From: Effrenium voratum | Taxonomy: Eukaryota; Sar; Dinophyceae; Suessiales; Symbiodiniaceae | Direction: 5' to 3' | Length of the DNA stretch: 64,000 bases | Assembly: GCA_963377175.1 (NCBI GenBank) | Contig: CAUJNA010003245.1 | Location: 471,831 to 535,830, forward strand | Part shown: piece by piece, positions 8,704 to 17,218 of the stretch | Layout of the letters: each line of letters opens with the position of its first letter | Numbering within the stretch: position 1 is the first letter of the stretch | Program-made: the position numbers and the translations under genes | Notes under the pieces: generated by a model | What the model was told of the DNA's origin: nothing | Databases searched by the model: none | Seen by the model: only the letters and a program-made list of their open reading frames with translations

Positions 8704-9293
8704 TTACGTGAAGAAGGTTATGGCTTTAAGCATGTCTGGTCTACCAAGCCTTGCCCCCCATAGCAATTTCATGAGAATTGCACACGCATGCGTTTGTAGC
8801 TGTCCCTCCTGCTCCCATTCGTCTGGAAGGATGGATCCCTTTGGCAGAAAAGGGGTTGCTGCACCTTTGAGTCGTTGCTGCTTAGTAATACCTAAGTACA
8901 TGTCTACGGCAGAACGAATGTACTCCCGTATGTTGAAAGCTACCCCAAGCCCATCAGGAGTCTCAACGATCTCATGGTGTCTCCCTAAAAACCTACCAAG
9001 TCCACCTATGTCTTCTATTTCAATCAACTTACCTAAGCCTAATTCTTGCCAGAACATTTCGTGTGATTCACCCCTGCCAGCTAACAAGAGATCATCCACG
9101 CACACTGTCAAGGCCAGGTCTCGTTGCTTGAAGAAGAATGTTGAAGGGTGCCCCTCAACAGTTTTCCCCCCAACTTGCGTACTGCCTCTTCGAGATGGTT
9201 CTGCCAGTGTGCGCCTGATTCCGGATGACCATACAGCGACTTAATGAGTCTTATGAGGGGTCGCCTATAGCGCTCAACCCACGAAGCCGGCCA
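8704..9293 (-). pseudogene. Copia-1 reverse transcriptase, C-terminal half (frameshifted)
   Basis: On the minus strand this starts at the transposon junction with WPASWVERYRRPLIRLIKSL and YGHPESGAHWQNHL, typical of the Copia RT palm. A one-base shift in a G/A run near 9,150 moves the frame, after which LTVCVDDLLLAGRG supplies the catalytic VDD box and GRPDMLKAITFF the later RT block. The other half of the domain lies beyond the nested transposon at 16,447-17,218. Confidence 0.85.
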
Positions 9294-9295
9294 TG
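9294..9295. other. Target site duplication TG (left copy)
   Basis: TG precedes the left inverted terminus and TG (16,445-16,446) follows the right one. Removing the transposon and one TG leaves the Copia-1 RT frame continuous across the junction (LPKET then WPASW), which fixes both ends to the base. Confidence 0.8.
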
Positions 9296-9325
9296 CCCTG
9301 AGACTCCAAGAAGCTCCATTTTGGA
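9296..9325 (+). repeat. Left terminal inverted repeat
   Basis: Thirty bases starting CCCTGAGACTCCAAGAAGCT, exactly the reverse complement of 16,415-16,444. It carries one unit of the subterminal AGCTCCATTTTGG motif. Confidence 0.92.
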
Positions 9326-9482
9326 AGCTCCAATTTGGAAGCTCCAAAATGGAGCTTCTCAGCAGCTCCATTTTGATGTTTTCAAGCAGCTCCATTTTGG
9401 AGCTGCCAGCTATGTTTGGAAGCTCCAAAATGGAGCTGCTAGAAGCTTCATTTTGGAGCTGCTAGAATCTTCATTTTGGAGT
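9311..9482. repeat. Left subterminal palindrome array
   Basis: About ten copies, in both orientations, of AGCTCCATTTTGG or its variants AAGCTTCATTTTGG and AATTTGGAAGCTCC. A ~40-bp block starting TTTTGATGTTTTCAAGCAGC at 9,373 recurs at the right end in the same orientation. Such clusters are typical transposase-binding regions, which is inferred here. Confidence 0.8.
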
Positions 9483-9536
9483 TGCTTAAGCTGTGATGTT
9501 CATTTAACTCTTCGTCGAGCTACACAGCTCTGCTTG

Positions 9537-9560
9537 CTTGCAGACTTTTACAGCTCAAGA
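9537..9560 (+). promoter_or_regulatory. Spliced-leader-like / acceptor sequence before transposon ORF A
   Basis: GCAGACTTTTACAGCTCAAG ends two bases before the ATG of ORF A. It resembles the 3' part of the dinoflagellate spliced leader (TTTTGGCTCAAG) with a small insertion. It could be a relic leader or a trans-splice acceptor; this copy alone would be weak evidence. Confidence 0.35.
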
Positions 9561-9562
9561 AC

Positions 9563-10549
9563 ATGCTGGTAAGCTCAGCAGTGAGAAGGGCCAGGCTGTC
9601 TGGAGGTAGCACCTCTAGCCTGCCAAAGGCTAATCCCAAGGCTTTTAGTGGCCTGCGCAAGGCCCAGGATTCCACAAAGATATCTGAAAAAGAAGCCACT
9701 GCTGTGTTGAAAAGTGGTTTTCCACAGGGCTTCCATGAGTCTGCCTTCACTGGCAAAGATGAAGTTGTAGGTGAGCAGCACTGCCAATTTTTGGAGGCTT
9801 GGTATGGCTTGGGCACCCTCAGCACACCCACTTCCAGAAAGGCGTGGCAAGCTGCTTTCCCAAATTTGGGCAGCAGTTCTGTCAATGCAGTGCTCAAGAA
9901 AATCAGCGGTATCAAGACTTATGTTTTGAGAAAGCAAAGGAATGCTAAAACTGGTGAAAGGATGCCTGCATGGGTGAAGAAGTTGTTGGGGGTTATGAAC
10001 CCTTACCTGCAAAAGGTGGAGCAACCTGTTGAACAAAATACAAAGCAAGTGAGCCTTCCAACTGCTGTGGACGAAAGTGGCACAGAAGAGCTGCCTGTAG
10101 CAGAAGAAGATGAATCCCCTAGCTGCATCAGTGTCAACAGCACTGCAGCACCCAGTCAATCCACCCAAGTTGCAAGCTTGCCAGGTGATGGTGGTATGAA
10201 AAGGCCTGCTGCCAGCATCTGTGTGGTTGAAGAGAAGCCTGTGCACAGTGCCTTCAAGAGGCCTGCGTCTGCCAGTGGTGGTGGCCTGAAAAAGGCTATT
10301 AGGAAGGCACCCATGGCTTGGCAGCAAAGCCCTTCCTTTGGCTTTGTGAAAGCCACTGTGGCCACAGAGAAATCTTACATTGTGAGCAAGAAAAAATTGG
10401 ATGACAAGCCAACTTGCCTTGTCAATGTTCAAGGCGCTGGGGTTGATCATGGCCAAGTGGTTGAAGAGCTGATGGCTTTGGCCCTGAACCAGGGTGGCCT
10501 GACAAAGGCCATGATGGTGGCCAAGAAGCAGGAGCTGTTGAAGAAGTAA
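9563..10549 (+). CDS. Transposon ORF A, unknown protein
   Basis: A 328-residue ORF from a real ATG. It has a basic N-terminus, a globular-looking stretch of about residues 45-150 (KEATAVLKSGFPQGFHES, EAWYGLGTLSTPTSRKAWQ, ERMPAWVKKLLGVMNPYL), an acidic Ser/Thr-rich linker, and a basic Ala/Pro/Lys C-terminal half with KRPAAS and KRPASAS repeats that look like nuclear localisation or DNA-binding patches. No family was recognised. Four of the micro-hairpins lie in the gene (9,616; 9,650; 10,284; 10,495), three read as GLxKA. It is first in the element and is followed by an AT-rich spacer. Confidence 0.6.
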   Translation: MLVSSAVRRARLSGGSTSSLPKANPKAFSGLRKAQDSTKISEKEATAVLKSGFPQGFHESAFTGKDEVVGEQHCQFLEAWYGLGTLSTPTSRKAWQAAFPNLGSSSVNAVLKKISGIKTYVLRKQRNAKTGERMPAWVKKLLGVMNPYLQKVEQPVEQNTKQVSLPTAVDESGTEELPVAEEDESPSCISVNSTAAPSQSTQVASLPGDGGMKRPAASICVVEEKPVHSAFKRPASASGGGLKKAIRKAPMAWQQSPSFGFVKATVATEKSYIVSKKKLDDKPTCLVNVQGAGVDHGQVVEELMALALNQGGLTKAMMVAKKQELLKK

Positions 10550-10639
10550 GTGGGCCAGTGGCAGTGAAGGACCTGAGAAAGGTTGGCCTGCACAAGGCCC
10601 ATCAGCCCCAAATTGGGTGAGACTTTTGGAGCGTTCAAT

Positions 10640-10880
10640 AAATATGACAAAAACTTAAAAAATAATAAATTGAAATATTTTTCAAAGAATACATATAGAT
10701 GTATAAATGATAAACATATCTTTACATTTATCTATTCATTTTTATTGAACTTTTTCTGAAAAACACAGCATGTTGTTAGCATGTAGCATGTGCACCATGT
10801 TTTTCGTGTGACATGCATGGTTGGTCAGTATAGTTTTCATTTTTGTCATGGTTTCCATGGTTGTCATTTTTGGTGGTTTG
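10640..10880. other. AT-rich spacer between ORF A and ORF B
   Basis: After a hairpin pair at 10,571 and 10,585 comes a strongly AT-rich stretch, then repeats of TTGGT/CATGG-type words. It is a plausible terminator-promoter interval for the two ORFs; no specific signal was recognised. Confidence 0.4.
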
Positions 10881-10915
10881 GTGTAGTTTGAAAATGAGGG
10901 TGGTGTTGAGTTGCT

Positions 10916-12193
10916 ATGGGCAGCAACTCTGGCTCAAGGTTGTATACACTCACTGAACTGGCAGGCACTATGTGTGGCCTGCAAAAGGCCTTGGTTTGGC
11001 TGTGCGTGCTGCTGCCCGCAGCACTGTCTGGGAGGTGGGACTGGAGTGAGTCTGTTTGGCATTTGGGGAGTTGGTGGCGGAAGCATTTTGAATCAGATTA
11101 CTGGTGTTTGGTCACTGACTCAGGGGAGCTGCTGTACCAGGATGATATCGATTGGTTTGACAACTGGGGGTATGATCTGCCCTGGCCTGAGCAAGGCCCA
11201 AAAACCAAGACGAGAGGCTGCACCTTGAAGCCTAATTTGGCAACTCGTGAAGATGACCCAGGTTTTGTGCCAAGTCATGGCGCAAGCAGCTCAGCTGGCC
11301 CTTCTGGCCCTGGAGGGTTGCCTGCGCAAGGCACAGGTGATGAAATCGTCGAGGCGCTCATCACCTTGCAGGAAAAGTTGGGAATGTCCAACAGATGGGA
11401 CAAAAAAAGTTTCAGAGCCCAACTGAGGAGAACTATCAAGAGGCTCTGTGAGAGGGAAGACATTCCTCTTCCTGAGTGGTGGGAAGGGAGTGGGGTGAGC
11501 ACCCACCAATACAAAATGAAAGCCCACCAATTCACAACCGACATGCTCAATCGCAAGCTGCACAAGCTCAATACTGGCCCTGTAACAGGGTTGCCTGCAC
11601 AAGGCAGTGGGAGCACTCCAGGCAGCACTCCAAGGGGTGCCAATCACACCCCAGCTGGGCCCAGCGCAACCCAAACCATCATTTATATGATGCAGAATGT
11701 GTTGGATGACTTGGCTGTGCTGCATCCTGGCATTCAAGATGAGGTCAGGGCAGCATTTGGGAGCCCCAGGATGCCAACTGCTCCTGAGTTGCCTAAACAA
11801 GGCAGTGGAGGTGCAAATAGCTCAGACTCAGAATCCAGCAGCTCATCTCCAGCAGTGGACCAAAGGAAGACCAAGAGTGAGCCTCCTAACAGTCCCAGGG
11901 AGCTTCCTGCAAGTTCAGGCCCTGAGGGGTTGCCAGCACATGGCAGAGATGAAGCTGCGTCAGAGGAACCTGGACCTCCAGCTGCAGCTGAGGCTGGTGG
12001 AAATGAAGTGGAGGAGGCCTCTGCAGCTGCAGTGGAGGCCCCTGCGGCTGCAGTGGAGGAGGCAGTGGAGGTGGAGGTGAACTCATCTGGCCCCAGCGGG
12101 TTGCTTGCACAAGGCATGAATGGTTCCTGGATTGCTTTGAGTCAAGCTCCCACTGAGGAATCCTTCACCCTCCCTGACCCAGATGAGTTGTAG
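10916..12193 (+). CDS. Transposon ORF B, acidic unknown protein
   Basis: A 425-residue ORF from a real ATG. The N-terminal ~60 residues are hydrophobic and Trp-rich (WLCVLLPAALSGRWDW, WHLGSWWRKHF). The middle has a charged helical segment (KSFRAQLRRTIKRLCERED) and a possible helical QTIIYMMQNVLDDLAVLHP. The C-terminal third is acidic and Ala/Glu/Val-rich. Five short GLPAQG-type repeats (GGLPAQGTGD, GLPAQGSGST, ELPKQGSGG, GLPAHGRDE, GLLAQGMNG) are the translations of embedded micro-hairpins and need not mean protein function. No family recognised; a membrane or transactivator role is possible but unsupported. Confidence 0.55.
   Translation: MGSNSGSRLYTLTELAGTMCGLQKALVWLCVLLPAALSGRWDWSESVWHLGSWWRKHFESDYWCLVTDSGELLYQDDIDWFDNWGYDLPWPEQGPKTKTRGCTLKPNLATREDDPGFVPSHGASSSAGPSGPGGLPAQGTGDEIVEALITLQEKLGMSNRWDKKSFRAQLRRTIKRLCEREDIPLPEWWEGSGVSTHQYKMKAHQFTTDMLNRKLHKLNTGPVTGLPAQGSGSTPGSTPRGANHTPAGPSATQTIIYMMQNVLDDLAVLHPGIQDEVRAAFGSPRMPTAPELPKQGSGGANSSDSESSSSSPAVDQRKTKSEPPNSPRELPASSGPEGLPAHGRDEAASEEPGPPAAAEAGGNEVEEASAAAVEAPAAAVEEAVEVEVNSSGPSGLLAQGMNGSWIALSQAPTEESFTLPDPDEL
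10920..10939 (+). promoter_or_regulatory. Spliced-leader-like sequence at start of ORF B
   Basis: GCAGCAACTCTGGCTCAAGG overlaps the first codons of ORF B and shares TGGCTCAAG with the end of the dinoflagellate spliced leader. If it is an acceptor or relic leader, the true start codon would be downstream of 10,939. Confidence 0.3.
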
Positions 12194-12289
12194 ATAGAAA
12201 AGCAGTTGACTGGCCCTGAGGGGTGGCCTGAACAAGGCCAACAGTTTGCCCAGCTCACCAGTAGCTGTGGACAAGCCTGCACTGGCAGG

Positions 12290-12500
12290 TAAATGACTTG
12301 AAAAAAAGTGAAATATCAAAAAATGTTAAAATAAAATTTAAAGGTACAAATTAAATATAAAATAACGTCTATTTATACCTGTTTCCTTTAAGGACAAAAT
12401 ATTTTCAAGAATATTTAAACATTTTGTTTAAATAAAGAAATATATATATATATATATTTCTGGATTTTTTGGAAATGTATAAACAAAAAATGTATATTTT
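12290..12500. other. AT-rich spacer between ORF B and ORF C
   Basis: Very AT-rich, with an ATATATATATATATATA run near 12,443 and inverted AT-rich words. No gene seen. It is a candidate 3'-end or promoter region. Confidence 0.45.
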
Positions 12501-12654
12501 TGGAATTTTCAAAAACGATTCCAGTGAACCCTTTGGCCTTGAGAAGGTGGCCTGCACAAGGCCCAAAGCCAAAACACAACCACACAGGAGCCACCAAACT
12601 CAAAGCTAACCACCCAAAAGCCCACACCTGAGACCACCCACAAGTTCAATCAGC

Positions 12655-12863
12655 CACCAAAAGTCCAGGCCCCAGCCCCCAAAAGTTCAGGCCCCAACCC
12701 CCCAAATTTTCTGGCCTGAAACCCAAAAAGTTCAGATCTGAACTTTCGAAAGTTCAGAGCTGAACTTTCTGAACTTTTGAGTTTAGTATTGATTTTAAAT
12801 GAAAAAGGTTAAAAAGTTCAGAATCTGAACTTTTAAAAGTTCAGAATCTGAACTTTTTCTCGG
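12655..12863. promoter_or_regulatory. Array of AAGTTCAGA-TCTGAACTT palindromes
   Basis: Four full palindromes occur between 12,728 and 12,863: AAAGTTCAGATCTGAACTTT, AAGTTCAGAGCTGAACTTT and two spaced AGTTCAGAATCTGAACT forms. Decayed half-copies (AAAGTTCAGGCCCC, AAAGTCCAGGCCCC) precede them. The array sits 200 bp upstream of ORF C and looks like an operator for a dimeric DNA-binding protein. Confidence 0.6.
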
Positions 12864-13010
12864 TGATTTTTCTCAATTTTTCAAGGCCAAAAAAGACTCA
12901 GATTTTGATTTGTTCATGGTTGGTTGTTGTTTTTTTTTGCTTGGTGTTTTTCATTTTTGTTTGGTGGCTTGGGTTCTCCTGGCTTGTTTGGCTTTGGGCC
13001 CCAATGTTTT

Positions 13011-13036
13011 TTTTTGCAGCCATTTGCAGCTCAGGG
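13011..13036 (+). promoter_or_regulatory. Spliced-leader-like / acceptor sequence before ORF C
   Basis: A T-run ending in TTTGCAG is followed by CCATTTGCAGCTCAGG. The GCAGCCATTT...GCTCA pattern parallels the dinoflagellate leader (its GTAGCCATTTT and GGCTCA parts). A polypyrimidine tract plus AG is equally a good trans-splice acceptor. It lies about 30 bases upstream of the ATG at 13,063. Confidence 0.4.
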
Positions 13037-13062
13037 TTACAAATAGAACCCTTTTGGCCAGT

Positions 13063-14169
13063 ATGGAAGTGCACTCCCCCATGAAAAGGCCAGCAATGGC
13101 CACACCCAAGAAGAGCCCCATGAAAGGGTCACCTGCAAAAGGTGCAGCCACAAAGGGTGAGCCTGTCTCCCCTGCACCTTCCAAGCCCACTGCTGCCAAG
13201 GCTTCTGCACAGAAGCATCCCCCCATCCCAAAGGATGCTGCCAAGAGGATGCACAGCAAGTTGCAGACTTTAGCCAAGTCTGGCAAGGATGGCCTGCAAA
13301 AGGCCTACAAGCAGTGCAAGACCCAGGAAGAGAAGAGGTCATTTTTTTATGACAAGTACTTGCTTGACCCAGAGGTCTCTGAGAAGACTGTCCTGAAAAA
13401 GGACAAGCAGGAGAGGGTTGTCACTGAGGACAACATTGATGACTGGTTCACAGCAGAGCAGGTGGCCAAGTTCAAGGGCATCGAACCTGGTGTGGACCAA
13501 TACAAGGAACTGGTTGCGGCCAGTGTCAAAGGGTTGCCAGAGAGAAAGCATGAGGATGAGAACCTGGCAGCCTTGGGAGTGGCGCAGTACCATTACCAGG
13601 CTACCAAGACAAAGAACCAAACTCTGAAGAGAAAGTCGTTGGAGCTGCAGGAGCAAGTTGGTGAAGTTAGCCAAGAAGACTTTGCTGACATGCGAGCAGC
13701 CATGAATCCTCAGAGCGGGCAGAGGATGATTGGCAGCAGTGGCTCTAAGCAGTCCAAGGGGGACAGTGGTCCTAGCCTGCGCAAGGCTGAGGGTGAGGTG
13801 GATGTCGAAGTGAATTGGGTGCAGGTGTACAAAGACAACCAGAAGAAGTGCAAGAGCTCTTTGGGCAGCATGGCAGCTGAGTTGCACAACTGCGACACCT
13901 TGCTGGGAAAGATTGCAGCCCTGCCTAACAGCAGTGAAATGAAGCCTCTGCTGAGCAAGCAGGTCCAGGCCCAGAAAAAGCTGATGGAAGATGAAAAGAA
14001 GAAGTTCCTCAGTGAGCACCTGGCCTTTCCCAAGGCTTGCACTGATGAGGCTGCAGCTGAAGAAAAGAACGAGGCTTTGACTGACTTGGTCAACAGGATG
14101 GCTTCCTTCCTGAAGGGGTGGAAGAAGGAGCTCTCTGCCCACAAGAATTTCTTGGACCAGGAGGGCTGA
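13063..14169 (+). CDS. Transposon ORF C, basic coiled-coil protein of unknown function
   Basis: The frame opens earlier, but the ATG at 13,063 (MEVHSPMKRPAMATPKK), after the leader-like site, is the sensible start, giving about 368 residues. The N-terminus has SPMK/SPAK/KRPA repeats like histone-tail DNA-binding motifs. The rest is charged and helical (KRMHSKLQTLAKSGKDGLQK, NQTLKRKSLELQEQVGEV, KKLMEDEKKKFLSEH), likely coiled coil. GLQKAYKQCKTQEEKRSFFY resembles short conserved blocks in dinoflagellate hypothetical proteins. No enzyme motif is visible. A structural or DNA-binding partner of the transposase is a reasonable guess. Confidence 0.55.
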   Translation: MEVHSPMKRPAMATPKKSPMKGSPAKGAATKGEPVSPAPSKPTAAKASAQKHPPIPKDAAKRMHSKLQTLAKSGKDGLQKAYKQCKTQEEKRSFFYDKYLLDPEVSEKTVLKKDKQERVVTEDNIDDWFTAEQVAKFKGIEPGVDQYKELVAASVKGLPERKHEDENLAALGVAQYHYQATKTKNQTLKRKSLELQEQVGEVSQEDFADMRAAMNPQSGQRMIGSSGSKQSKGDSGPSLRKAEGEVDVEVNWVQVYKDNQKKCKSSLGSMAAELHNCDTLLGKIAALPNSSEMKPLLSKQVQAQKKLMEDEKKKFLSEHLAFPKACTDEAAAEEKNEALTDLVNRMASFLKGWKKELSAHKNFLDQEG

Positions 14170-14356
14170 AGCAAAAAGCTTCTCTTTGCCACTTTGGTTG
14201 CCTGCATAAGGCAAATTTGGCTTCTAGCATCTGCAGCCCAAAGATTTGCAGAATGCTTTAGACCTTTCGACTGCTGCTTGGCAAAGAGAGCTGCTTGCTG
14301 CCGAGCTTTCTGGCTACCTTTTCCCACCCTTGTTTTCCCCAAGCTTTAACTTCCTA

Positions 14357-14376
14357 CTGTAGACTTTTGGCTCAAG
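14357..14376 (+). promoter_or_regulatory. Relict dinoflagellate spliced leader before ORF D
   Basis: CTGTAGACTTTTGGCTCAAG matches the dinoflagellate spliced leader at about 17 of 21 aligned positions, including its last 12 bases TTTTGGCTCAAG exactly. It lies 33 bases upstream of the ATG at 14,410. Relict leaders in genomic DNA are known in dinoflagellates from reinsertion of processed, trans-spliced cDNAs. Confidence 0.6.
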
Positions 14377-14409
14377 CTCCTTGGTATCTTTCAATTTTTC
14401 TTGGCACAC

Positions 14410-16176
14410 ATGCTAGCCAGCAAATGGCTCCTGTTCCTGGCCTTGTGCTTAGGTGGCCTGCACAAGGCCATTGCTGGAAAAACTTCTTCTTCCAAGAGAA
14501 AAGCTTCTGAGTCTGAGTCTGAAGACTGGGCCCACTTTGCTTTGCATTTGCATAGCAGCAATCAGTTGCCAGGCACTGAGGCCAAAAGAAACATAGAGAA
14601 GGCATCTAGGGCAGGTGCTAAGGGCTTGAAGTTGAAAGCCAAAAAAGGCAAAAAAAATGCTGCGAGGACTTTGAGGAGGGCTTGGCCCAAAACCACATGG
14701 CCAAGCCTTTATTGGGCCCAGATTCCAATAAAGGACAAAAAGACTAATACAAAAAAAATGGTGAACTACCCCTTTCAATTGCCACATGAGTGGCTTGGGC
14801 AATACATGCTAGACCCTAGGGCTCTGCAAAGAAGCCAGCCTGCGCAAGGCAGCAAGGTGCACAAGGCTTTGCTCAAGCAAAGCTTGAGGCTCAGTGCTGA
14901 AGACCCACAAGGGACATGGATGTCTGGCCAGCATATGGCCCTTGGTTTCCATGGGGATGGTGTGCCTGTGCAAGGCACTATGAGACAAGAAAGTTTAGAT
15001 TTTCTGACCATCAACATGCCCAGCAACAATCACCACAAAGATTTCAGGGTACCTTTTACCGTAATCCAAGGAGCCTGGCATTTCAATTATGAAACTAAAA
15101 AAGCAATCTTGGAAGTGCTCCTCTGGTCTTTGGATTGCCTGAAAAAAGGCAAGTACCCTACTTGCAGGCATGATGGCACCTCTTGGGGGGCACAAGACAA
15201 GAAGAGATCAGGGCTGCAAGGCAGCTTGCCTGCAAAAGGCATTTTGTGTGAGGTCAGAGGGGACTGGGATTGGCTGAACAGCTGGTTGAATTTTCCTACT
15301 TGGAACACTGGGTCTGGAATGTGTTGGCTTTGTGAAGCTAAACATATCAACTACAAAAATTGGGGGCCAAATGACAGGAAGGCTGGCCTGGACAAGGCCA
15401 AATTTGTGGAGAGAGTGCAAAACATGGGCAAGCAGCTGTGTCCTTTTTGGGAATGGCCTGAGCTCATTCCTTCAGAGCTTTGCTTGCCTGACTGGCTGCA
15501 TGCTGTTGACCAAGGCATTGGGGCAGACATTGCTGGCCAAATTCTGGTGGAGCTGGCTGAGCAGCACCCAGCGAGGGCTTTCAAGGATAGGGTTGCTTGT
15601 CTATGGGAAGAAATCAAGCAGCTGTACAAAGAGTTCGATGTGGAATACAGGTTGGCCAGCTTGACACCTGGTGTCCTGAACAAGGACCAAAAGAAAACCA
15701 ACAAAACTGCAACTTTGAAAGGGTTGGCTGCCCAAATCAGACATTTGGTTCCACTGCTGCCCATCTTAACAGCCAAATATTTTTCTGGTGGCAATGAGCA
15801 CCAGCAGGCAGTCAACAAATTAGCCAGATTTTTGGCAGATGCTTACCAGTGCATGGAATCAAATGACATAGCTAGGCTTCCTCGATTGGGCCACAAGGTG
15901 GCTAGCCAGTACATGGCTTTGGAAAATGAAGCACTAAGGAATGACCCAAACACCACCACTTGGCACATTATGCCAAAGCTGCACATGTTCCAGCACATTG
16001 CTGATGCTCCTTATTCCCCGAAAGAATATTGGTGCTACAGGGATGAAACTGTAGGTGGGCAGCTGGCCGATCTCTTTACGAGGAGGTCTGGGAAAAATAA
16101 CCCTGCCACAAATGCTTCCAACTGCTTGCTGAGGTGGCAGCAAGAGAACCATTTCCCTGCCATCCCTTTGGATTGA
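14410..16176 (+). CDS. Transposon ORF D, candidate DDE-type transposase
   Basis: About 588 residues from the ATG at 14,410. The N-terminus (KWLLFLALCLGGLHKAIAG) looks like a signal peptide, odd for a nuclear enzyme, and is followed by a Lys-rich patch (KLKAKKGKKNAARTLRR). Candidate catalytic acids are Asp183 (GFHGDGVPV), Asp367 (LHAVDQGIGAD) and Glu546 (CYRDETVGGQLADLF). A CWLC pair near residue 305 and the preceding GDWDWLNSWLNFP form a conserved-looking core like large transposases with an insertion domain. It is the longest and best ordered of the four ORFs. The transposase call is inference from motif spacing and from being in a TIR element; the family is not identified. Confidence 0.55.
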   Translation: MLASKWLLFLALCLGGLHKAIAGKTSSSKRKASESESEDWAHFALHLHSSNQLPGTEAKRNIEKASRAGAKGLKLKAKKGKKNAARTLRRAWPKTTWPSLYWAQIPIKDKKTNTKKMVNYPFQLPHEWLGQYMLDPRALQRSQPAQGSKVHKALLKQSLRLSAEDPQGTWMSGQHMALGFHGDGVPVQGTMRQESLDFLTINMPSNNHHKDFRVPFTVIQGAWHFNYETKKAILEVLLWSLDCLKKGKYPTCRHDGTSWGAQDKKRSGLQGSLPAKGILCEVRGDWDWLNSWLNFPTWNTGSGMCWLCEAKHINYKNWGPNDRKAGLDKAKFVERVQNMGKQLCPFWEWPELIPSELCLPDWLHAVDQGIGADIAGQILVELAEQHPARAFKDRVACLWEEIKQLYKEFDVEYRLASLTPGVLNKDQKKTNKTATLKGLAAQIRHLVPLLPILTAKYFSGGNEHQQAVNKLARFLADAYQCMESNDIARLPRLGHKVASQYMALENEALRNDPNTTTWHIMPKLHMFQHIADAPYSPKEYWCYRDETVGGQLADLFTRRSGKNNPATNASNCLLRWQQENHFPAIPLD

Positions 16177-16249
16177 AAGCATGAGTATAGAGGGAGCTGC
16201 AATGCTTGGCCTGCACAAGGCCCCCAACCAACCAATCCAAGTTTCAAAA

Positions 16250-16430
16250 GCAGCTCATTTTAGCAGCCCCATTTGATAGCAAAAGCAGCTCATTTTAGAA
16301 GCTCCATTTTGATGTTTTCAAGCAGCTCCATTTTGGAGCTGCCAGCTCAATTTGAGAAGCTCCATTTAAGAAGCTCCATTTTGGAGCTGCAATTGCCGTT
16401 TTGGAGCTGGCAGCTCCAAAATGGAGCTTC
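16250..16430. repeat. Right subterminal palindrome array
   Basis: About ten copies of AGCTCCATTTTGG, AGCTCATTTTAG and variants in both orientations, with the same TTTTGATGTTTTCAAGCAGC block (16,308) as the left end. It mirrors 9,311-9,482. Confidence 0.8.
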
Positions 16431-16444
16431 TTGGAGTCTCAGGG
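16415..16444 (-). repeat. Right terminal inverted repeat
   Basis: Exact reverse complement of 9,296-9,325, ending GGAGTCTCAGGG and followed by the TG target duplication at 16,445-16,446. Confidence 0.92.
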
Positions 16445-17218
16445 TGTCTCCTTCGGGAGACGCACCCAGGTTTCGCACAGGCTGCGGAGATCCGCCTGTA
16501 CGTAGGCTTTTACCGCGTCGGCGGACGTCACGCGGTTGCCTGGAAATTGTCCGAACGCGATGCTGGCGTTAGCCGTGGAAATCATCGACGGAGATGCAGA
16601 GAGGCTTTGATACACTGCCAGCGCCCCGTCCTGGTCTCTGGCATTATCACCTCCAAAAACTCCACGTCCTTTCAATTGAACCATGTCTGGACCCATTTCA
16701 ACGAACCGCCTAGAACATATGGACATCACATCGCCTATGTGTATTTTATCCCCCTTTGTACGGGCTTCCGCCAGGATCTCTGGCTCTTCCCGCACAGTGT
16801 CTAGGTCCCAGGTTCCTTTGTCGGTGAGTCCGTTGAACTCCTTCTGAACTGCTGCGATGGCCTTCGGATCTCTGATCCGTTCTTTTCGGTCAAGCAGTTC
16901 TGTCACGAGGGCTGGCTGCGTCTCTCCCATCAGCACCTCAAGTGCAGTGAGTGCATGCCATACGTCGTCATCTGTCACGGCAGCTGTTGCAGGTCTACTG
17001 GAAGCTGCTGTCGGATTGCTTGGCACGTGTCCCGGCTCGCGTGGGTCGTCCGGCGGAACACCCTTGCGCGGAGGGAACCCTCTCAGGTCTTTTCTTTCTG
17101 TGAGGTCTCTGTGTCCTACGACCACTGATGACGGCCCATGTGGCACAGGAGTGTGAATGCATCGCAGGCGTTGGCGGCACGGGCAACGTCGTGGGCGTAT
17201 TCCCCCCTGGTCCTGCAT
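16445..17218 (-). pseudogene. Copia-1 reverse transcriptase, N-terminal half
   Basis: KEFNGLTDKGTWDLDTV opens the RT as in other Copia proteins, followed by the block with VQLKGRGVFGGDNARDQDG and the palm Asp block TSADAVKAYVQADL; it ends ETWVRLPKET exactly at the transposon boundary. A Ser/Pro/Ala-rich linker precedes it. The expected first catalytic Asp region (DVKAAFLQA-like) reads DAVKAYVQA. The domain continues at 9,293 once the transposon is removed. Confidence 0.85.

Follow-up and report, generated by a model that had tools for sequence, protein, structure and literature searches.

Analysis of a 64,000-nucleotide stretch of the genome of the dinoflagellate Effrenium voratum (positions 471,831 to 535,830 of contig CAUJNA010003245.1; hereafter the window, whose numbering is used throughout) established that a 7,149-bp DNA transposon at 9296..16444 on the + strand carries along its coding strand an array of short hairpins with loops of the GNRA type (N, any base; R, purine). 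At the level of sequence, the comparisons demonstrated the array itself, its strand bias, a rule governing the loop, co-variation of the outer stem pairs, turnover of individual sites relative to one related family, and restriction to part of the transposase tree, and in combination they support selection on RNA structure. The hairpins probably serve as docking points on the mRNAs of the transposon itself, to be bound by a protein that recognises the GNRA fold; it is from the patterns described below that we infer the action in RNA, the reading by a protein and the effect of its binding.

The hairpin array on the coding strand

The initial annotation had placed at least 28 micro-hairpins of the form CCTGN3AAGG in the transposon. 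Exact copies numbered 28 in the window as a whole, compared with 2.08 expected from 100 dinucleotide shuffles (maximum 6), so that the predicted excess over shuffled sequence was confirmed; 25 of these lay within the transposon (for which script counts were taken over 9290-16443) and three outside it. All 25 were on the + strand, as had been claimed for every copy. Admission of any Watson-Crick stem of at least 4 bp with a GNRA-type loop raised the sense count to 32 and added four antisense hairpins, to which the claim of a single direction does not extend. Fixing only the loop class GNRNA and a 4-bp stem gave 29 sense and 3 antisense hairpins (shuffle mean 1.8, maximum 5), while the three classes GNRA, GNR(N)A and GN(N)RA, the bracketed base being looped out, with stems of at least 5 bp gave 27 sense and 2 antisense (mean 1.1, maximum 5 in 200 dinucleotide shuffles), as against 7 and 7 in the remaining 57 kb of the window. 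Tetraloop control classes (UNCG, GNYA, CNRA, GNRC and ANRG) occurred from 0 to 4 times per strand in the transposon; pentaloop control classes were counted in other loci only. In an unselected list of all pentaloop hairpins of the transposon, GCACA and GCAAA were the most frequent loops.

Co-variation of the pairs flanking the core was assessed by random reassignment of the 3' letters between the exact sites of the transposon. Outer pair 1 was Watson-Crick in 25/25 (permutation mean 16.5, p<=1e-5) and outer pair 2 in 21/25 (mean 9.8, p<=1e-5), or 24/25 when G-U was counted, and the flanking variants named in the initial annotation were all present. A count with slid partners agreed (covariation score 0.342 versus at most 0.107 when slid; 0/500 shuffles). 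Beyond these, the third pair yielded p 0.12, and none of pairs 3 to 6 rose above chance at the 25 exact sites, from which the unit is taken to be 15 nt long, with a stem of 5 bp. The proposed swap of the core pair was likewise borne out, the closing U-A being replaced by A-U in four hairpins, with arms starting at 11932, 14416, 14927 and 15905.

The loop, treated previously as a free NNN, in fact follows a strand-specific G-N-R-N-A rule: 23 of the 25 exact sites conform to it and the other two (GACAA and GCCAA) are G-N-N-R-A, with A at the third position in 16, G in 7 and C in 2. Since the terminal G and A were built into the search pattern, the purine alone counts as evidence, and since the reverse complement of the loop falls outside the class, the signal is specific to one strand.

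The 32 sense hairpins are distributed along all four long open reading frames (ORF1 to ORF4, each on the + strand, ORF4 coding for the transposase), 26 lying within ORFs and six outside them (together with one noncoding antisense hairpin). ORF1 contains those at 9617..9631 (loop GCCAA, of the GN(N)RA class), 9650..9664 (GCGCA), 10004..10018 (GCAAA, outermost pair U-G), 10283..10297 (GAAAA, outermost pair G-U) and 10496..10510 (GACAA, a GN(N)RA loop identical to that of P22 boxB). Two follow its stop codon, at 10570..10584 (GAGAA, outermost pair G-U), with an arm 22 nt past the stop, and at 10585..10599 (GCACA), with an arm 37 nt past it. ORF2 contains hairpins at 10976..10990 (GCAAA), 11184..11198 (GAGCA), 11319..11333 (GCGCA), 11556..11568 (4-bp stem AGCT, loop GCACA), 11592..11606 (GCACA) and 11931..11945 (TGCCA-GCACA-TGGCA, with its closing pair swapped to A-U), and is followed by one at 12225..12239 (GAACA, arm 33 nt past the stop) and by the spacer hairpin at 12549..12563 (GCACA). 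Within ORF3 are the GNRA tetraloop hairpin GGCCA-GCAA-TGGCC at 13088..13101 and those at 13130..13144 (GCAAA, outer pairs C-G and A-U), 13291..13305 (GCAAA), 13390..13404 (GAAAA), 13774..13788 (GCGCA) and 13948..13962 (CTGCT-GAGCA-AGCAG), with another at 14199..14213 (GCATA) having its arm 31 nt past the stop. ORF4 has nine: 14415..14429 (AGCCA-GCAAA-TGGCT), 14455..14469 (GCACA), 14838..14850 (4-bp stem, GCGCA), 14926..14940 (GGCCA-GCATA-TGGCC), 14963..14977 (GTGCA), 15227..15241 (GCAAA), 15385..15399 (GGACA), 15673..15687 (GAACA) and 15904..15918 (AGCCA-GTACA-TGGCT); the last of the array, at 16208..16222 (GCACA), begins its arm 33 nt past the ORF4 stop.

The initial annotation had described sites in two reading frames and in spacers; hairpins were found in all three codon phases, and the part of the claim concerning sites outside ORFs held, these comprising the after-stop sites and the single spacer site at 12549, with none in 9296-9562. 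An arm 22-33 nt past the stop codon in 4/4 ORFs, a placement noticed post hoc, was matched by 0/20000 random placements. By eye, a second small stem (e.g. GGCCCTG..AGGG) appears just upstream of several hairpins, giving apparent two-hairpin modules at 10480, 10560, 11297, 11575, 11915, 12208 and 12535.

In each of six ORFs, four from this transposon and two from the relative L027 described below, the hairpin count exceeded that of 1,000 synonymous-codon shuffles (p<=0.004). Predicted local pairing at the 32 sites had a median of 0.61, with 22/32 at 0.5 or above, as compared with 0.09 and 31/128 for other hairpins having loops of 4-5 nt; the corresponding in-context figures for L027 were 12/19 sites and 29/94 other hairpins of loop length 4-5. 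Where the sites are translated, the peptide footprints GLxKA and SLxKA result, and these occurred 53 times, as opposed to 1.2 expected, in 16 ORF1 sequences (some nearly identical), recurring also within poorly aligned linkers. The ORF1 alignment comprised 15 of 19 protein hits plus the window, and that of ORF3 14 of 17 plus the window, shorter or partial ones having been dropped by hand. An Rfam scan of the transposon gave 36 hits at E<=1 (35 to microRNA models), each below the gathering score of its family; all fell on inverted repeats, either close to the ends of the transposon or at 12.7-12.9 kb, and none at the hairpins.

Turnover among relatives and distribution in the genome

Because the pentaloops are able to take a GNRA fold, true GNRA tetraloops are predicted to be equivalent to them. 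The transposase of the relative L027 (on contig C3586) is 33-37% identical to ORF4 (33% over 579 aa), and a relative of ORF3 adjoins it. With the three loop classes defined above, an 8-kb piece of L027 contained 19 sense and 2 antisense hairpins with stems of at least 4 bp, and 13 sense and 1 antisense with stems of at least 5 bp (shuffle mean 1.0, maximum 4); over the stretch from ORF3 to ORF4, which was picked post hoc, the sense and antisense counts were 19 versus 0 and 13 versus 0, respectively. Ten of the sense hairpins have true GNRA tetraloops, e.g. AAGCCU-GCAA-AGGCUU.

Two homologous ORF4 sites allow direct comparison. At the site coding for LPAKG (15227..15241) the pentaloop GCAAA of the present transposon corresponds to the tetraloop GCAA in L027, and at that coding for GLDKA (15385..15399) GGCCU-GGACA-AGGCC corresponds to AGCCU-GACGA-AGGCU, where the outer pair has changed with compensation and the loop belongs to the other looped-out type. 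No other ORF4 sites are shared (7/9 here and 9/11 in L027 being without a counterpart), which indicates that the array is maintained while single sites turn over. That tetraloop and looped-out pentaloop replace one another in related elements suggests that selection may act on the three-dimensional fold and not on its letters. In L036, which is a further copy from the L027 family, 9 sense and 0 antisense hairpins with stems of at least 5 bp were counted in 2.7 kb, and a decayed member, L038, had 4 sense and 1 antisense. The after-stop placement was not found in L027.

A transposase tree of 43 rows was assembled from 37 of 61 protein hits, the window and five genome loci, shorter or partial sequences again being dropped by hand. 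At least two peptide footprints were present in 25/29 rows of one well-supported clade, compared with 0/9 rows of a distant clade; the label requires six changes on the tree and is thus clustered rather than the product of a single clean gain. At seven loci with transposases 27-33% identical (L028, L029, L031, L032, L033, L037 and L039), no sense hairpin of these loop classes with a stem of at least 5 bp was present in the transposase stretch read, and counts with stems of at least 4 bp were non-significant in the six tested.

The genome searched comprised 1.156 Gb in 3,699 contigs. The strict motif GGCCTGNRNAAGGCC occurred 324 times (197 + 127), the reversed-pattern control giving 58 + 57, and 10 of the copies fall within the 7 kb of the window's transposon; in a genome of this size, so low a number means that the host does not carry the strict motif in widely scattered form, which is the outcome of the genome search proposed in the initial annotation. 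Among 18 genome pieces (176 kb), hand-picked at fixed coordinates and not random, there was no clear excess over control loops: GNRNA hairpins numbered 71, of which 17 lay in two tandem arrays, versus 40 to 64, and GNRA hairpins 58 versus 45 to 75. Such tandem arrays inflate the counts, with 10 identical GNRNA hairpins in one piece (L010) and 7 in another (L018); hairpins with stems of at least 5 bp numbered 40 over both strands, and no single strand of any piece had more than 7. Outside the transposon, at least 27 copies of GGCCTGNRNAAGGCC lie within 3.6 kb at C402:227867-231467, probably as a tandem repeat.

The transposon and its coding capacity

The element qualifies as a class II DNA transposon by its terminal inverted repeats, its target duplication, its transposase and the reading of two insertions with these ends. 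Perfect 30-bp repeats bound it, the left (CCCTGAGACTCCAAGAAGCTCCATTTTGGA) at 9296..9325 on the + strand and the right at 16415..16444 on the - strand, with the target duplication TG at 9294-9295 and 16445-16446. The second insertion, on contig C3043, has an ORF4 protein 100% identical, ends identical over the stretch read and different flanks, including a TA duplication (2 bp, as is the TG of the window); the identical ORF4 in different flanks suggests recent activity of the transposon. The CACTA/EnSpm superfamily is characterised by CACTA-type ends and a 3-bp duplication. Assignment to it was rejected, the ends here starting with CCCTGAGACTCC, the duplications being 2 bp and a Pfam transposase match being absent.

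ORF1 (9563..10549, 328 aa, of unknown family) is predicted to consist of a helical domain, a low-confidence linker and a small beta-alpha domain; ORF2 (10916..12193, 425 aa) is likewise unknown, and ORF3 (12910..14169, 419 aa, of unknown family) is listed with a TTG start and has an in-frame ATG at 13063. ORF4 (14401..16176, 591 aa, also listed with a TTG start) gave a confident predicted structure (pLDDT 89), for which the best PDB matches by Foldseek were RAG1 (E 7e-7) and then HzTransib (E 4e-3); on this model, it is a transposase with a RAG1/Transib-like fold. A Pfam scan of six proteins, including ORF1-ORF4, produced none that reached the cut-off. The N-terminus of ORF1 includes a conserved basic segment modelled with low confidence, and arginine-rich RNA-binding peptides are frequently disordered; the segment is a candidate RNA-binding region, as a lead only.

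The transposase relatives that carry names come from Symbiodinium sp. CCMP2592 and from a gene designated Skav212623, the prefix of which we take to be that of Symbiodinium kawagutii; these names point to a host that is probably among the Symbiodiniaceae. A scan of IMG/VR contigs with ORF4 gave a pattern match in one stretch and no confirmed relative. By eye, the insertion splits an apparent copia-type reverse transcriptase region (16439-17218 and 9108-9428, both on the - strand), and Pfam recorded no hit for the ORF at 16439-17218. Subterminal repeats of the type AGCTCCATTTTGGAGCT were seen beside both terminal repeats (9300-9480 and 16250-16440). In the region separating ORF2 from ORF3 (12710-12860), inverted repeats AGTTCAGA...TCTGAACTTT are clustered and give strong hairpins on both strands.

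Candidate roles of the array

The initial annotation had concluded that selection or spread acted at the level of RNA or single-stranded DNA, and the strand bias, the co-variation of outer pairs, the GNRA-type loop, the replacement of a pentaloop by a tetraloop in a relative and the codon choice beyond synonymous shuffles support selection at the RNA (or single-strand) level. They likewise support, as the likely class, its suggestion of a protein-binding site or a signal for RNA processing or packaging. In the mechanism envisaged, the RNA element would consist of a stem of 5 bp, with U-A (or A-U) as its closing pair, and a loop adopting the GNRA fold, whether with four bases or with five of which one is looped out. 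Such hairpins would be retained along sense transcripts, both coding and untranslated, for the multi-copy docking of a protein that recognises fold and stem and that might be the transposon's own product or one recruited from the host. If many sites per mRNA mattered, and the position of each mattered little, sites could appear, disappear and be rewritten. Once bound, the protein might mark or protect the transposon mRNAs, with possible consequences for their stability, export or translation, or for the gathering of mRNAs with their products.

Alternative roles make different demands on the same data. That the hairpins are dispersed packaging signals, by which a nucleoprotein or capsid-like protein encoded by the transposon would gather its mRNAs into particles or condensates as the coat proteins of single-stranded RNA viruses do, appears unlikely: many degenerate stem-loops with a common recognition motif, as set out in PMC6281560, constitute a similar architecture, and three ORFs of unknown family accompany the transposase, but neither the Pfam scan of ORF1-ORF4 nor the fold search with ORF1 gave a capsid or nucleoprotein match, and for a DNA transposon whose transposase is RAG1-like, packaged RNA is unnecessary. 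Recognition of the hairpins by a host RNase, splicing or 3'-end factor, as signals of RNA processing or turnover, is also improbable. Their recurrence shortly after the stop codons is what such a role would explain, yet the 26/32 sense hairpins inside ORFs are at positions where cleavage would ruin the message, and the after-stop placement is missing from L027.

Three further explanations fare less well. Signals in single-stranded DNA for transposition or replication of the element are very unlikely, even though sense-only hairpins would fit one DNA strand as well and a GTAA tetraloop in DNA can adopt a GNRA-like fold (PMC12550061). The sense sites are absent from 9296-9562 at the left end, those outside ORFs being restricted to the after-stop positions and one spacer, and the transposase fold is of the RAG1/Transib type. 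That family acts on double-stranded ends. A small palindrome spreading as DNA within the element (and the host), its strand bias arising by chance or selection, is scarcely tenable, a tiny self-spreading palindrome having been one suggestion of the initial annotation: several ORF2 sites form part of a repeated GLPAQG-type peptide and an indel (LPGLQKAS) falls at one site of the decayed L030, but strict copies are rare genome-wide, the 18 pieces gave no clear excess, exact copies are 25/25 in a single orientation, and loops and stems differ between families, the loop class being retained despite changes of letters and length. Least probable of all is a protein-level repeat, with selection on the peptides G-L-x-K-A and L-P-A-x-G and the hairpin arising incidentally from codon usage. 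Two peptide footprints do predominate; however, the three codon phases, the six sense copies outside ORFs, the shortfall of synonymous shuffles in 6/6 ORFs (weaker in L036) and the tetraloop version at a homologous site all run counter to it.

Several results weigh against docking sites for a GNRA-reading protein. DNA comparison yielded one clear relative family in the genome (L027, L036 and the decayed L038), and L030, the closest copy, also decayed, has 6 sense sites versus 9 antisense. The 8-kb piece of L028 (31% identical) has 7 sense and 1 antisense GNRA-type hairpins with stems of at least 5 bp, more than in shuffles (mean 0.8, maximum 4), which is adverse or at best ambiguous, its transposase ORF having no GNRA-type hairpin with such a stem; the same may be said of L033, with 2 sense hairpins of this kind in its 4.8-kb piece and 0 in the two transposase stretches tested. 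As L028, L031, L037 and L039 have the same two 4-bp sites and form one family, they are not independent negatives. Synonymous shuffles of a 1.1-kb transposase stretch of L036 gave p 0.010 (stem of at least 4 bp) and 0.086 (at least 5 bp), a weaker result than elsewhere, and mean predicted pair probability was below 0.5 at 10/32 sites. No reader protein was identified, ORF1-ORF4 being below the Pfam cut-off and the ORF1 fold search having a best E of 0.57, with no significant structural match, and GNRA-type hairpins could persist for stability alone. Separately, GCAA or GCGA tetraloop hairpins with long stems of 7-8 bp were seen on the sense strand of L028 (contig C957) at 1672, 2048 and 7974, the first two within a separate upstream ORF that adjoins this distant transposon relative and is perhaps outside the element.

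Among known systems, the closest likeness is to lambdoid boxB. That of lambda is a 15-nt hairpin with a 5-bp stem, a U-A closing pair and a GNRA-fold pentaloop with a looped-out base, and lambdoid phages have one such site per nut region, next to boxA in the antitermination leader. The 25 exact sites all have a GNR(N)A (23) or GN(N)RA (2) pentaloop, and 24/25 pair at position 5, the last with a pairing signal. PMC12550061 describes the P22 boxB pentaloop GACAA as taking a GNRA fold with one base looped out and being bound by N peptide, and a CRISPR RNA loop with an n4-n5 insertion as also GNRA-like. The earlier statement that no element of this form has been described was therefore too strong for the hairpin itself; of arrays in a DNA transposon, or in dinoflagellate transposons, no report was found in literature judged by titles and the starts of abstracts, with subscription journals and preprints mostly outside its scope. 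The present array differs from boxB in having some 30 sites through the coding and noncoding sense strand of a eukaryotic transposon rather than a single leader site (boxA was not searched for), in the many true tetraloops of L027, and in that an N-like peptide is a lead only, in the form of the low-confidence basic segment of ORF1.

Smaug recognition elements are short hairpins, several per mRNA and also in coding sequence, read by a protein through a CNGG-type loop. The short multi-copy mRNA hairpins here resemble them, but the loops are GNRNA, GNNRA and GNRA and not CNGG, and this assignment was rejected. The packaging signals of MS2 and other single-stranded RNA viruses, as described in PMC6281560, similarly comprise many degenerate stem-loops with a common motif, a likeness seen here at the DNA level; the present element differs in being DNA that is bounded by terminal repeats, flanked by target duplications and coding for a protein with a transposase fold, no coat protein having been found by Pfam (ORF1-ORF4) or by the ORF1 fold search. 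By the tests made, the array is a member of neither boxB nor these packaging signals. RAG1/Transib-like and related DDE transposons have in common with the element the transposase fold and terminal inverted repeats, and differ from it with respect to its 2-bp duplications (TG, TA), the absence of a Pfam match and the dispersed hairpins.

To our knowledge, no DNA transposon is known whose mRNAs carry structured RNA signals in arrays. If the hairpins are docking sites, they would represent, in eukaryotes, a natural equivalent of the boxB/N-peptide tether, by which a genomic parasite could tell its messages from those of its host. A bolder proposal, put forward tentatively from these sequences, is that a clade of eukaryotic DNA transposons may have turned its coding sequences into boxB-like arrays, by which a dedicated and perhaps transposon-encoded protein, through reading the GNRA fold, tells the element's own mRNAs from all those of the host; if true, RNA structure would here hold a code for self-recognition that survives the wholesale turnover of its sites, stems and loops.

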